Part shown: positions 27,126 through 53,341 of the stretch, one piece after another
Numbering within the stretch: the stretch's first letter is position 1
How the letters are laid out: each line of letters begins with the position of its first letter
From: Oscillatoria sp. SIO1A7
GTDB taxonomy: Bacteria > Cyanobacteriota > Cyanobacteriia > Cyanobacteriales > Laspinemataceae
Assembly: GCA_010672965.1 (NCBI GenBank)
Contig: JAAHFN010000007.1
Span: 1 to 64,000 of the forward strand
Reading direction: 5' to 3'
DNA: 64,000 bases
Position numbers and translations under genes: made by a program
The notes under the pieces: generated by a model
Seen by the model: the letters and a program-made list of their open reading frames with translations, nothing else
Told to the model about the DNA's origin: nothing
Databases searched by the model: none

Positions 27126-28097
27126 ATGGGACTATTAATTGAAGGTGTTTGGCACGATCGCTGGTACGATACCGAAAAAACTGGGGGACGTTTTGTCAGG
27201 CAGGATTCCCAGTTTCGCAATTGGGTGACTGCAGATGGAAGTGCCGGACCGACTGGAAAAGCGGGCTTCAAGGCGGAAAGCGATCGCTACCATCTCTATG
27301 TTTCTTATGCCTGTCCTTGGGCGCACCGCACTCTTATCTTTCGAGCCCTAAAAGGTTTGGAAGAAATGATTCCCGTATCGGTAGTTCATTGGCTAATGGC
27401 AGAAAAAGGCTGGACGTTCGAGCCCGGGGAAGGGGTTATTCCCGATCGCATTAATAACGCTAGCTTTTTGCACGAAGTTTACACCAAGGCCAACCCAACT
27501 TACACGGGTCGGGTGACGGTGCCGGTGCTGTGGGACAAGCAAACTAATACCATTGTTAGCAACGAGTCATCGGAAATTATCCGAATGCTTAACAGTGCTT
27601 TCGACGGGGTGGGAGCAATACCTGGAGACTACTATCCCCCAGATTTGCGCGAGGAAATAGATGCTCTGAACGCTCGGATTTATCCTAATGTTAATAATGG
27701 CGTCTATAAAGCGGGGTTTGCTACGACTCAGGAAGCTTATGAAGAAGCGATCGCTCCCTTATTCGAGACTTTAGAATGGCTCGAAGAGCGACTATCACAG
27801 GGGCGCTACCTCACTGGCGATCGTCTTACTGAAGCAGATTGGCGCTTGTTCACGACAATGGTGCGCTTTGACCCAGTTTATGTGGGACATTTTAAATGCA
27901 ATTTGAAGCGAGTAGTAGATTACCCGAACCTCTGGGGCTATATCCGCGATCTCTATCAAGTGCCCAAGGTCGCCGAAACCGTTAATTTCCAGCATATCAA
28001 GGGTCACTATTACGAAAGTCACAAAACTATTAATCCAACCGGGGTTGTGCCGCTTGGCCCCGAGATTGATTTTACCGCACCCCATAACCGCGCATAA
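27126..28097 (+). CDS. glutathionyl-hydroquinone reductase (Xi-class GST)
   Basis: A 323-residue protein with the Xi-class glutathione transferase plan. Thioredoxin-like N-domain with catalytic Cys63 in YACPWAHRTLI, the family-typical FVRQDSQFRNWVTADGS before it, SNESSEIIRMLNSAF for glutathione binding, and an all-helical C-domain with the GRYLTGDRLTEADWRLFTTM block. These enzymes reduce glutathionyl-hydroquinones to hydroquinones using a second glutathione. All signature residues are visible and the length is normal. It follows the FMN reductase on the same strand. Confidence 0.9.
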   Translation: MGLLIEGVWHDRWYDTEKTGGRFVRQDSQFRNWVTADGSAGPTGKAGFKAESDRYHLYVSYACPWAHRTLIFRALKGLEEMIPVSVVHWLMAEKGWTFEPGEGVIPDRINNASFLHEVYTKANPTYTGRVTVPVLWDKQTNTIVSNESSEIIRMLNSAFDGVGAIPGDYYPPDLREEIDALNARIYPNVNNGVYKAGFATTQEAYEEAIAPLFETLEWLEERLSQGRYLTGDRLTEADWRLFTTMVRFDPVYVGHFKCNLKRVVDYPNLWGYIRDLYQVPKVAETVNFQHIKGHYYESHKTINPTGVVPLGPEIDFTAPHNRA

Positions 28098-28133
28098 CCG
28101 CTTAGGAAAAGAGATAAGCTGCTGCTGAGGGCC

Positions 28134-28166
28134 AGAAACCCGGTTTTTTCAAAAAACCGGGTTTCT
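28134..28166. repeat. AGAAACCCGG hairpin repeat
   Basis: AGAAACCCGGTTTTTT with its complement; 36 bases after the GST stop, so it may end that transcript. Same family as 785-822. Confidence 0.6.
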
Positions 28167-28216
28167 CACGCAAACTGGAATAGCATATTTATCTTGGTCT
28201 TACCTATTGAAAATCT

Positions 28217-28909
28217 ATGTCTATCGAAACATATCGTCAAGCCATAGAAGAACGGGGTTTTTATCAAACTGAGGCAGTTCTGGATAGAGATCGGGTTGCC
28301 GCACTTAGAGAAGCCGCGCGATCGGCGCTATCTTGCGGCCAAGGCAAAACCTATGGAATGCGCCGCTTTTTGGAAATAGTTCCCGCCGCTCGCGAGCTTT
28401 GCTTTTTGCCCAGCATCCGCGCCCTTGTGGAACCGATTATCGGTGCCGATTACCGACCAGTGCTAAGTCTGTTTTTTGACAAAAATAAACAAGCAAACTG
28501 GAAAGTATCTTGGCACCAAGACTTAACGATTGCGGTTCGCGAGCGAATCGATACTCCGGGTTTTAGCTCTTGGTCGCTCAAAGACAAGGTTACCCACGTC
28601 CAACCGCCGACGAAAGTTATAGAAAATATGCTAACTTTGCGCATTCATCTAGACGATACCGACGCGGATAACGGCGCGCTCCGCGTCATTCCCGGAACTC
28701 ACAGCCGGGGTCGCTTGTCTGTAGAAAAAATTCGCGTTCTCAAAGAACAGCCAGTTACCTGTTGCGTTCCTTCTGGAGGAATATTGGCGATGAGACCTTT
28801 GCTAGTCCATTCTTCGCAAAAATCTCGAAACCCCCTGCATAGACGCATTATTCAGATCGAGTTTGCTGCCGAACCGCTAAGCAACGGTCTAGAATGGTAT
28901 GGAGCCTAA
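28217..28909 (+). CDS. phytanoyl-CoA dioxygenase (PhyH) family protein
   Basis: A 230-residue Fe(II)/2-oxoglutarate oxygenase. The iron triad is readable: His100 and Asp102 in SWHQDLTI, distal His198 in LLVHSSQKS, with Arg209/Arg210 after it to bind 2-oxoglutarate. IHLDDTDADNGALRVIPGTH is the conserved double-stranded beta-helix strand. The substrate is not evident; related cyanobacterial enzymes are diverse hydroxylases. Starts at ATG 28217, after the hairpin repeat, as a single-gene unit. Confidence 0.85.
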   Translation: MSIETYRQAIEERGFYQTEAVLDRDRVAALREAARSALSCGQGKTYGMRRFLEIVPAARELCFLPSIRALVEPIIGADYRPVLSLFFDKNKQANWKVSWHQDLTIAVRERIDTPGFSSWSLKDKVTHVQPPTKVIENMLTLRIHLDDTDADNGALRVIPGTHSRGRLSVEKIRVLKEQPVTCCVPSGGILAMRPLLVHSSQKSRNPLHRRIIQIEFAAEPLSNGLEWYGA

Positions 28910-28955
28910 TTTATATCAAATCTGGACTCTCAAGCTCAGAACTCTCAAGCTCATA

Positions 28956-29265
28956 ATATCAAATCCGGTTAATTACCCATGAATCCCGTAGGGGCAATCC
29001 CCCCGCGATCGCCCCAGTTCCCCTCCTGCGGGCGGTGTGGGTGGGTTGGGCGGCCGGGGCGGAAGGGCACCGCCCCTACAGGTACTGTGACTGTTTATAG
29101 CGGTTCTCGCTCTTGATGTGAATAATCTGGGGCGAAGCATCCCCAATATGAGAGTTGCCGTTAGGGCGCCTGCGATCGGTCGAAGGGATGCTGTCGCCCC
29201 TACGTTTCTAGGGTCCGATCCTTTATTACACTTATTTGAGAAACGCTATAACCGGATTTGATATA
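28956..29265. repeat. ATATCAAATCCGG-shell repeat, copy 2, interrupted
   Basis: Left part ATATCAAATCCGGTTAATTA and core GTAGGGGCAATCCCCCCGCG, then CTGTGACTGTTTA, then the MITE, then ACCGGATTTGATATA. Removing the MITE and one TA gives GACTGTTTAACCGG, exactly as in copy 4 (53205-53285). Confidence 0.85.
29098..29248. mobile_element. TAGCGTTTCTC MITE, copy 4, nested in another repeat
   Basis: 151 bp, ends TAGCGGTTCTCGCTCTTG and TTTGAGAAACGCTA, TA duplications at 29096-29097 and 29249-29250, standard core. Inserted in the ATATCAAATCCGG repeat. Confidence 0.85.
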
Positions 29266-29353
29266 ACTCTCAAGTTCAAACCTCTCAAGCTCAGAACTCT
29301 CAAGCTCAGAACTTAAAACTCAAACCTCTCAAGCTCAGAACTATTCAAGTGCA

Positions 29354-30418
29354 ATGACTTCGCAAAAATATAAATATCTGGCCGCTTTTTTAATAGCTTT
29401 ATGCTTGGCTGTTGTCCCCAGTTGGATTGCTTGGGGAGGATGGCTGCCTCAAAACCGGACTGCGGACAATACGGCAATCTTAGCCCAGACAGCAGCCAAT
29501 TCTCCGCGCTTTGGCCTACCGATTGACTGTAGCCTTGGCGAAGAATGTTTTGTTATGCTCTATCCCGACCGAGACCCCGGCCCGGAAGCAGTTGATTTTG
29601 GCTGCGGTCGCCAAACCTACGACACCCACAAAGGAACTGATTTTGCTATTAGGAGCGATCGCCACATGGCTACAGGGGTTAAAGTCCAAGCCTCGGCCTC
29701 CGGTAGAGTTTTGCGGATACGAGACGGAGTTGCCGATCGCCGCGTTCGGGACGAAGCCGATATAAAAGCCGTCAATGGAATTGAATGTGGCAATGCTGTA
29801 GTTATCGACCACGGCGATGGCTGGGAAAGCCAATACTGCCACCTACGCAATGGCAGCGTTACCGTGAAACCGGGAGATGAAGTGCAAAAGGGTACGGTGC
29901 TGGGTATGGTCGGTGCTTCTGGTCTGGCATCTTTCCCTCACGTTCATCTAAGCATCCGCTACCAAGGCGAAGTAGTCGATCCGTTTGTCGGGCCAAATGC
30001 CGGTCCGGGCTGCAACGTTCCGCGCAATTCTATCTGGGAAAAGCCTCTCGATTATCTGCCGACGGGTCTTATCCGTGCTGGCTTTGCTCCAGAACTACCA
30101 AATATGGAGAGACTCTGGCAAGGGAGTTTTTCGGAAAAGACCCTATCTAAAGATGTACCCTTGACGATCTTCTGGGTTCAAGCTTATGGCACCCTTCAGG
30201 GAGACAAAGTGCATTTTAAGCTGACAGCGCCCAACGGGGAAGTCATGGCCGAAAACGAACAAATTCTCGAAAAGCCGAATCGTACTTGGATGGGTTATGT
30301 GGGCAAGCGCAATACTCAAGAGCGCCCGATTATTCCGGGGAAATGGCAGGGAGAGTATCAATTAATGCGCGGCGATCGCGTTCTTATAGAAGTCGATCGC
30401 TCTGTTGAAGTGCGCTAA
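29354..30418 (+). CDS. exported M23-family metallopeptidase domain protein
   Basis: A 354-residue protein with an N-terminal hydrophobic segment (LAAFLIALCLAVVPSWIAWG, residues 9-28) that looks like a signal peptide or anchor. The LytM/M23 metal site is intact: His92 and Asp96 in DTHKGTDFAI, and His196 and His198 in SFPHVHLSI, with YCHL between. M23 enzymes cut peptidoglycan cross-links. The C-terminal about 110 residues (SEKTLSKDVPLTIFWVQAYG) form an extra beta-rich domain of unknown role. It acts in the periplasm or cell wall. The start at 29354 follows CAAGCTCAGAAC short repeats with no strong ribosome site. Confidence 0.85.
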   Translation: MTSQKYKYLAAFLIALCLAVVPSWIAWGGWLPQNRTADNTAILAQTAANSPRFGLPIDCSLGEECFVMLYPDRDPGPEAVDFGCGRQTYDTHKGTDFAIRSDRHMATGVKVQASASGRVLRIRDGVADRRVRDEADIKAVNGIECGNAVVIDHGDGWESQYCHLRNGSVTVKPGDEVQKGTVLGMVGASGLASFPHVHLSIRYQGEVVDPFVGPNAGPGCNVPRNSIWEKPLDYLPTGLIRAGFAPELPNMERLWQGSFSEKTLSKDVPLTIFWVQAYGTLQGDKVHFKLTAPNGEVMAENEQILEKPNRTWMGYVGKRNTQERPIIPGKWQGEYQLMRGDRVLIEVDRSVEVR

Positions 30419-30442
30419 GCTTACGATCTAATTGAAAAATAC

Positions 30443-30552
30443 AGGACTTACGCATTAACGCTATTGACGGGGCGATAGCAACGCTCTCCCTGGCGGTGCG
30501 CGGGGGGATTGCCCCTACAAAACACCACACCTGGATATTTTCCGTAAGTCCT
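30443..30552. repeat. AGGACTTACGC-shell repeat, copy C
   Basis: Reverse orientation of copy B (26249-26336), with an extra internal segment near AGCAACGCTCTCCCTGGCGG. Confidence 0.75.
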
Positions 30553-30797: not shown

Positions 30798-30940
30798 TAG
30801 CGTTTCTCGCTCTTGATGTAAGGTGTCTGGGGCGAAGCAACGAGAGTAAGGAGGGTTGCCCTTTTGCAGCCGAGATGGTCTCAGGGATGCTGTCGCCCCT
30901 ACGTTTCGTTCCTTATGTTACACTGATTTGAGAAACGCTA
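30798..30940. mobile_element. TAGCGTTTCTC MITE, copy 6
   Basis: 143 bp from TAGCGTTTCTCGCTCTTG to TTTGAGAAACGCTA. A TA lies at 30796-30797 on the left but GAATTATA follows on the right, so there is no clean duplication, consistent with recombination between tandem copies. Confidence 0.75.
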
Positions 30941-44662: not shown

Positions 44663-45496
44663 CTACCAAATCCGATCGCCGTAACCATAGAAATGGAAGC
44701 GGCCAAAACCGAGGAATTGGCCGTGAGACTTTTCTCCCGGGGGAAAAGCGGTAACGCCGAATTGGTAAATGCCGCCGGATTTGGGATTGCGTCTGGGGTA
44801 CAGGGCAATAGTGACGGTTTTGCCCGGGGGAACTGGGGGAGAAAAGGCGATCGCAACGCTACGGTTTTGGCGATCGCTCTTAACTTCTGCTAAATTGAAC
44901 TCCGCCCCTTTTTCCCCATAAGTTCCTTCAAAAGCTTCGGTATCTTCAAGCTTCAAGCGGACGTATTCTATACCGTCATGCTGATTTATCGTTATTCGTT
45001 GCAGGGGTTCCCCGGCATTCTCCGGCAATCTGACCGTAAAATAATAAGTCGCTCCCCAGACATAAGCAGTATTTTGCGTCGTCACTGCTTCCAGCAAGCG
45101 AGGGGGTTGCTCGAAATAAACCGTGCCATCCCGGAGCTGAATAGCTACAGCATTACGCATTAAGGTAGTAGGGGCGATTCGCGAATCGCCCCTACTAATA
45201 TCAAATCCGGTAAAATACCCACAAAAAAATTTGTAGTCTCCCGTAGGACGGGCGTCCCGCCTGTCCGAAGCGCCTGGTATGGACAGGCGGGACGCCCGTC
45301 CTACGGAAAGGCTTTTTTTAGGGCGATTAACCGGATTTGATATAACCCCTTGTCCTAAGCCGTCTTTGTAGTGCAACACAGCCGACTGAGATGAAACCGA
45401 CTGACAGACAACTGACTGACAGAAAATCGATGCTGCCAGACTCGCGGCCAAATATTTCCAGGATTTCCAGATAAAAAGACTATTCACGACTTTCAT
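44663..45496 (-). CDS. exported DUF2808 protein with in-frame repeat insertion
   Basis: A 277-residue protein. N-terminal hydrophobic segment (YLAASLAASIFCQSVVCQSV) is a likely signal peptide. The DUF2808 domain occupies the C-terminal about 165 residues: AIQLRDGTVYFEQPPRLLEA, YVWGATYYFTVRLPENAGEP, PVPPGKTVTIALYPRRNP and FGVTAFPPGEKSHGQFLGFG. Between the two, about 59 codons (45168-45344) are repeat sequence kept in frame: a GATTCGCGAATC palindrome and an ATATCAAATCCGG element. DUF2808 proteins are cyanobacterial, periplasmic and of unknown role. The start overlaps the upstream serine hydrolase stop by 17 bases, so translation is coupled. Confidence 0.8.
   Translation of the reverse strand: MKVVNSLFIWKSWKYLAASLAASIFCQSVVCQSVSSQSAVLHYKDGLGQGVISNPVNRPKKSLSVGRASRLSIPGASDRRDARPTGDYKFFCGYFTGFDISRGDSRIAPTTLMRNAVAIQLRDGTVYFEQPPRLLEAVTTQNTAYVWGATYYFTVRLPENAGEPLQRITINQHDGIEYVRLKLEDTEAFEGTYGEKGAEFNLAEVKSDRQNRSVAIAFSPPVPPGKTVTIALYPRRNPKSGGIYQFGVTAFPPGEKSHGQFLGFGRFHFYGYGDRIW
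45198..45344. repeat. ATATCAAATCCGG-shell repeat, copy 3, inside DUF2808 gene
   Basis: ATATCAAATCCGGTAAAATA to TAACCGGATTTGATAT with a core of GTAGGACGGGCGTCCCGCCT and its complement, 147 bp, exactly 49 codons. Joined on its left to a separate palindrome GTAGGGGCGATTCGCGAATC (45168-45195). Confidence 0.8.
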
Positions 45497-53096: not shown

Positions 53097-53204
53097 ACTT
53101 TTCAAGTTTAAGAACAGAGACGCCATAGGCTATATATTTGGATGCTGTCGTCCGCTACAAAATGACCCTGTCTTAACTCAAGCGAAGAACTCTAATTTAT
53201 TCTA

Positions 53205-53285
53205 ATATAAAATCCGGTTAATTACGCATAAATTCCGTAGGGGCACCGCCCCTACAAACTGTGACTGTTTAACCGGATTTTATAT
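53205..53285. repeat. ATATCAAATCCGG-shell repeat, copy 4
   Basis: ATATAAAATCCGGTTAATTA to TTTAACCGGATTTTATATA, core GTAGGGGCACCGCCCCTAC, 81 bp, uninterrupted. It provides the empty-site sequence GACTGTTTAACCGG for the nested MITE at 29098. Confidence 0.8.
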
Positions 53286-53341
53286 AACTCAAAACTCTCA
53301 AGCTAAGAACTCAAAACTCTCAAACTCAAAACTCAAAGCTC

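Follow-up and report, generated by a model that had tools for sequence, protein, structure and literature searches.

Two MITE families with TA and TNA target duplications are nested in both orders in the genome of Oscillatoria sp. SIO1A7

Small repeats that are inserted in one another have been described in Streptococcus pneumoniae, where RUP, BOX and SPRITE elements are reported in this arrangement by PMC3049150. With regard to cyanobacteria, Nezha is a MITE for which movement by ISNpu3-like elements has been proposed, as cited in PMC3049150 and PMC3733652, and Anabaena sp. 90 is given in PMC3542288 as the host of 147 short inverted-repeat MITEs, 132 of which are intergenic. On the side of the transposases, PMC8533490 states that the entire IS630-Tc1-mariner group recognises and duplicates TA, yet gives TATA for Sailor, and PMC7325037 presents TA as a shared feature of the IS630/Tc1/mariner group. 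The former source also counts Zator and TP36/ISAzo13-like elements within the wider IS630-Tc1-mariner group.

The locus described here lies in a 64,000-nucleotide stretch that was analysed as a whole and is called the window below; it corresponds to positions 1-64000 of contig C150 of a 9.08-Mb draft genome. An outer MITE with TATCAAATCCGGTTAA-type ends occupies positions 28957-29263, as delimited by arm pairing, by alignment of the joined host and by its flanks, and measures 307 bp with its insert and the duplicated TA, or 154 bp without them. When the sequence is read directly, GACTGTTTA at 29089-29097 is followed by the inner MITE at 29098-29248 (151 bp, with ends TAGCGGTTCTC and GAGAAACGCTA of IS630 type) and then by TAACCGGATTTGATA. 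The two copies of the TA target duplication are at 29096-29097 and 29249-29250, and the remainder of the outer MITE, which is its right terminal repeat as judged from arm pairing and sequence, is at 29251-29263. The outer element exhibits a 3-bp target duplication of its own, TAA, read from the sequence at 28954-28956 on the left and at 29264-29266 on the right, in keeping with the flank rule of its family. The ORF list contains no frame of >=60 aa within 29098-29248, a search of 28000-30500 against Rfam gave nothing up to E 1, and the inner copy, taken as RNA, is predicted to fold to -55.1 kcal/mol (z -2.8). The first-pass annotation had described this stretch as a 151-bp MITE inserted into a palindromic repeat with duplication of TA, and the insertion is borne out, as TA stands on either side of the insert and the joined flanks give a normal outer element. 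Its label for the outer sequence named a real repeat and was incomplete, the repeat being a MITE with a 3-bp duplication.

Two features were noted beside the outer copies. A solitary outer-type end, TATCAAATCTGG, preceded by TTA, is present at 28914-28925 and is perhaps the remnant of another outer copy; the focal outer element lies 43 bp downstream of it. Short CTCAAGCTCAGAACT-like direct repeats occur at 28925-28953, at 29267-29345 and also near 53290, beside both the focal outer copy and the unbroken copy described next.

At 53206-53284, the window contains an unbroken outer copy of 79 bp, with TAA at 53203-53205 and 53285-53287, in which GACTGTTTAACCGG is continuous; further outer copies, each flanked by TAA on the left and on the right, are found at 45199-45342 and 651-733. 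The 79-bp copy had been proposed as an empty site preserved elsewhere. The same sequence is indeed unbroken there, but in a paralogous copy of the repeat and not at an orthologous site; judging by alignment, the focal outer element has a better full-length paralogue at C13:240207. A search of 59 genomes (58 others) with the 1.1-kb locus, in which at most 7 candidates were scored per genome, gave no orthologous empty site; in the 58 others, matches were confined to neighbouring genes or short repeat pieces, with none over the intergenic stretch.

Both families were surveyed in a sample of 2.38 Mb, made up of the larger contigs and representing 26% of the genome. For the outer family, 69 rows minus C150:28914 left 68 end pairs, some of which share an end, and 53 of them exhibit identical 3-nt flanks (28 TAA, 22 TTA and 3 TGA), with an identity of 2 nt in 3 pairs and of 4 nt in 1. 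Shuffling the flanks gave a mean of 26.9 and a maximum of 41 identical pairs, and none of the 20000 shuffles reached 53. The inner family is represented by 100 end pairs spaced 100-260 bp, some again sharing an end, of which 91 are 135-154 bp long and 96 are flanked by TA on the left and on the right, in agreement with the TA duplication claimed for the insert; identity of the flanks is of 2 nt in 97 pairs, of 3 nt in 0 and of 4 nt in 1. An inner copy at 30798-30940, with TA on the left and GA on the right, was the sole exception among 47 in a first sample. Exact TATAGCGTTTCTCAAAT occurs 374 times and exact TWATATCAAATCCGGTTAA 244 times in the genome, and the reversed-sequence controls give 0 for both, so the nest is not a product of chance; in 98 other genomes, they occur 0 to 8 and 0 to 10 times each, respectively. 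The focal inner copy gave 44 matches (with 40 of 848 candidates scored), two other copies being 95% identical to it and most 82-89%, and no plasmid matches to it were found. The inner family thus exhibits the features of a MITE, namely short, non-coding elements with terminal inverted repeats, many copies and a target duplication, and the hosts of those nests that were joined are restored. The outer family is a MITE family too, with short elements, inverted repeats, many copies and a 3-bp duplication.

Ten matches to the DDE_3 profile were obtained in this genome, of which two belong to the same element and four contain internal stops; none of the ten is open over the whole profile, and no complete helper was found among them. 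Facing inner ends 0.7-1.6 kb apart in the sample enclose host genes or no long frame, with no transposase recognised by eye. The first-pass annotation had suggested a search for an IS with TAGCGTTTCTC-type ends, and such elements do exist in other genomes. Among the IS630 loci L164-L200, 12 of 37 carry a 1.01-1.23 kb element that is flanked by TA on either side and has inner-like ends under a relaxed pattern; Laspinema olomoucense and a Gloeocapsa MAG are among the sources. L166 and L194, which belong to the 12, agree in their ends and length and may represent a single element. The best case is L196, from a Pleurocapsa MAG, with a 20-nt end TAGCGTTTCTCAAATAAGTG that is common to many inner copies, and a further IS630-type element, L307, has exact TAGCGTTTCTCAAAT at one end. 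At L129 (1399-2365, G000:C138), an IS630 transposase is encoded in two overlapping frames, for which either a break or programmed frameshifting may be responsible; only one side of the element has an inner-like end, CAGCGGTTCTCAAATGA, beside TA. All seven named transposase relatives are cyanobacterial. The inner ends are thus shared with IS630 elements, and the inner family is probably IS630-derived.

With regard to the outer family, a 1143-bp element with TATCAAATCCGG ends and TAA on both sides was found in a relative's genome (L264), where the pieces of an apparently broken transposase hit the IS630 model. A protein search of plasmid sequences turned up 24 records. Five outer-type IS copies of 1148 bp are present on a plasmid of Stanieria sp. 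NIES-3757 (AP017376.1, L325-L327) and two elements of 1159 bp in the first 50 kb of a plasmid of Cyanobacterium aponinum PCC 10605, with ends identical to that of the focal outer element at 21-23 of 28 positions. The flanks of Stanieria copies 1-5 are TTA/TTA, TTA/TAA, TAA/TTA, TAA/TAA and TTA/TTA, the last copy spanning the record origin, and those of C. aponinum are TGA/TGA and TTA/TAA, which gives equal TNA flanks in 3/5, 1/2 and, for L264, 1/1. As Stanieria copies 2 and 4 have a right flank that is identical over 100 bp, their sequences suggest recombination between the IS copies. IS630-annotated relatives on Thermus plasmids (L323, L329 and L331-L334; 7 of 19 records fetched) have equal TNA flanks in five of the six with both ends found, namely TCA/TCA in three and TGA/TGA in two, with TTA/TGA in one; no right end was found in a seventh. 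Repeats of three bases, TNA, consequently flank 5/8 of the cyanobacterial and 5/6 of the Thermus elements, in place of the 2-bp TA expected for IS630. With the IS630 model NF033545 (cut-off 100), the two ORFs of the Stanieria transposase give scores of 93.9 and 100 bits; DDE_3 scores 63.5 bits (cut-off 28.6), and HTH_33 is also present. The number of residues between the last two catalytic positions, assigned by motif and not by structure, is 31 in Stanieria and Thermus and 34 in L129, L307, L166 and L194. No relatives of the outer helper were found in this genome at E 1e-15, and facing outer ends 0.6-2.6 kb apart in the sample enclose host genes or no long frame, again with no transposase by eye.

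A transposase of the IS5/IS1031 type, which would make the outer repeat Tourist-like, is another candidate for its movement, as such transposases are the usual source of TNA duplications, IS1031 elements duplicate TNA, and the outer family has a 3-bp TNA duplication. However, PF13359 and PF13340 give 0 matches in this genome, and the transposases that were found with outer ends give hits to the IS630 model and DDE_3, which leaves this origin improbable.

The nesting scan of the sample gave 14 rows, of which six were kept, two represented a second outer left end in a nest already listed and six were rejected. The rejected rows (three at C98:97999 and one each at C128:31652, C13:362417 and C95:9721) have poor ends, and their flanks show neither TA nor equal TNA. 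The six distinct nests comprise three inner-in-outer nests (the focal one at C150:29098, C150:295217 and C172:117313), two inner-in-inner nests (C95:9652 and C95:145054) and one outer-in-inner nest, with no outer-in-outer nest. Joining was done for all of them except C95:145054, and the five hosts align across the join to other copies, the joined host of C95:9652 being 97.8% identical to C150:235857. The outer flanks of the C172:117313 nest are unequal, TAA vs ACT. In the outer-in-inner nest, the inner MITE at C150:162666-162952 is interrupted at 162789-162935 by an outer element that has TTA on its left and right. When this outer element is taken out together with one TTA, an inner MITE remains that matches other copies from end to end (86%, E 8e-39). 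By reading, a duplication of 2 bp would leave surplus bases at this nest, whereas one of 3 bp restores the inner MITE.

This reversed order implies that each family continued to insert once the other was present. The focal insertion is younger than its own outer copy, as had been proposed and as the structure of the nest indicates. The further claim, that the nest dates the whole TAGCGTTTCTC family as younger, is not shown by it, because the nest at C150:162666-162952 exhibits the opposite order; a single nest dates one insertion and not the ages of families. A genome-wide catalogue with nesting order had been suggested as a check, and the 26% of the genome that was scanned did provide nests, but with both orders among them. 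Nevertheless, the inner family may tend to be younger on average, as inner-in-outer nests are commoner (three to one) and the sequences of inner copies are more alike, the focal inner copy having relatives at 95% and the best full-length outer match being at 79%. Random insertion into non-coding TA would give, per 100 inserts, a rough expectation of 1.2 inner-in-outer and 2.1 inner-in-inner nests (57 outer copies counted), as compared with the three and two observed, so no excess of nests is claimed.

An extra scan considered inner copies at most 30 nt from an outer end and is biased, since it covers the inner-in-outer direction only. At C96:32669, it gave an inner-in-outer nest with a joined host equal to other copies at 100% over 53 nt, and at C18:8838 one with a single visible outer end. 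Two more inner-in-outer cases lie at the edges of outer copies: at C98:295794, the inner copy occupies the terminal TA of an outer copy that is degenerate, and at C128:139376 it occupies a TAA adjoining an outer copy. C13:333660 and C150:200977, with one outer end each, are doubtful cases. The same TA, about 13 bp from the outer end, was hit by four inner insertions (29098, L011 1501, L034 1501 and C172:117313), which is partly an effect of the end-focused scan.

If the inner and outer elements had moved as a single composite unit, the order of insertion could not be read from the nest. Chimaeric MITEs can arise and then amplify, and the inner copy at C18:8838, which is 95% identical to the focal one, also adjoins an outer end at the equivalent TA. 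At C18, however, the outer end adjoins the opposite end of the inner element, so that the orientation is reversed and the composite would be a different one. The second 95% inner copy, on C159, is without adjoining outer sequence, the junctions differ in the other nests, and no second copy with the same junction and orientation was found, all of which makes a composite very improbable. That the two halves of the outer element are unrelated, the nest being a chance alignment of repeats, is hardly credible: the right part is only 13 bp long, but the arms at 28956-28971 and 29249-29264 are complementary at 16/16 positions, TAA is present at both ends, and the joined 154-bp element (insert and one TA removed) aligns from end to end, through the join, to C13:240207-240355 (79%, E 2e-28). 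The joined element also matches seven more loci at full length across the join, among the matches listed. Unrelated halves were the counter-case named by the first-pass annotation, and the full-length alignment contradicts it.

The reading that we favour, with a probability of about 0.88, is that of two high-copy non-autonomous families, nested both ways and moved by IS630-type DD34E (TA) and IS630-like DD31E (TNA) transposases. For the inner family, the mobilising enzyme would be a DD34E transposase of IS630 type, with insertion at TA and duplication of TA, and for the outer family it would be a second IS630-like transposase (DD31E, HTH_33), with three bases, TNA, being duplicated. At the focal locus, an outer element would first have landed on a TAA between two genes, and an inner element would later have landed on a TA 13 bp from the right end of the outer element. 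We infer that such transposases moved both MITE families in trans. Several results count against this reading. The searches gave neither a complete helper nor a relative of the outer helper at E 1e-15 in this genome, and no orthologous empty site. The stretches over which the ends of MITE and IS agree are short, at best 20 nt for the inner family and 21-23 of 28 positions for the outer. Unequal flanks are present in two of the five elements of Stanieria, in one of the two of C. aponinum and in one of the six of Thermus.

With regard to its wider meaning, we lean slightly towards the existence of an IS630-like clade (HTH_33 and DDE_3, DD31E; in cyanobacteria and Thermus) that duplicates TNA and has seeded a MITE family nested both ways with TA-type IS630 MITEs. 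In plants, Stowaway MITEs duplicate TA and Tourist MITEs TWA; if the clade is real, the two families would be a bacterial counterpart of this pair, with both halves from IS630-like enzymes. The shorter DDE spacing of the clade would allow the relation of active-site spacing to duplication length to be tested inside a single family. The nests serve as internal empty sites, by which the duplication length of both families is fixed without a second genome. As both MITE families are present with hundreds of ends and the searches gave no complete helper, this genome is a candidate for the study of MITE persistence after helper loss.

In comparison with RUP, BOX and SPRITE, the sequences and the host differ, and here the duplications are resolved for both families and the proposed helpers are of two types. 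Nezha is likened to these elements by description alone, and either family could be Nezha. The MITEs of Anabaena sp. 90 have no linked IS in that genome, whereas the ends described here match IS of other genomes. The Thermus element ISTth6 (IS630) is listed with 2-bp repeats in PMC6352166 and may or may not be the Thermus element of the present comparison; at the title and abstract level of a literature search, with ISfinder outside its scope, no IS630 with a 3-bp duplication was reported. The inner family resembles the IS630/Tc1/mariner group in its TA duplication and its DD34E relatives. In contrast, the outer-type elements have a transposase with hits to the IS630 model but exhibit a 3-bp TNA duplication, DD31E and HTH_33. 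Zator and ISAzo13-like elements have 3-bp duplications, which counts against the novelty of the TNA clade; the outer-type transposases, with hits to the IS630 model and DDE_3, are set beside them by description only. The TNA clade may still be a variant so far undescribed. As the nesting of small repeats is already known in pneumococcus from the account in PMC3049150, the nest itself is ordinary transposon biology, and it is the TNA clade that is worth following.
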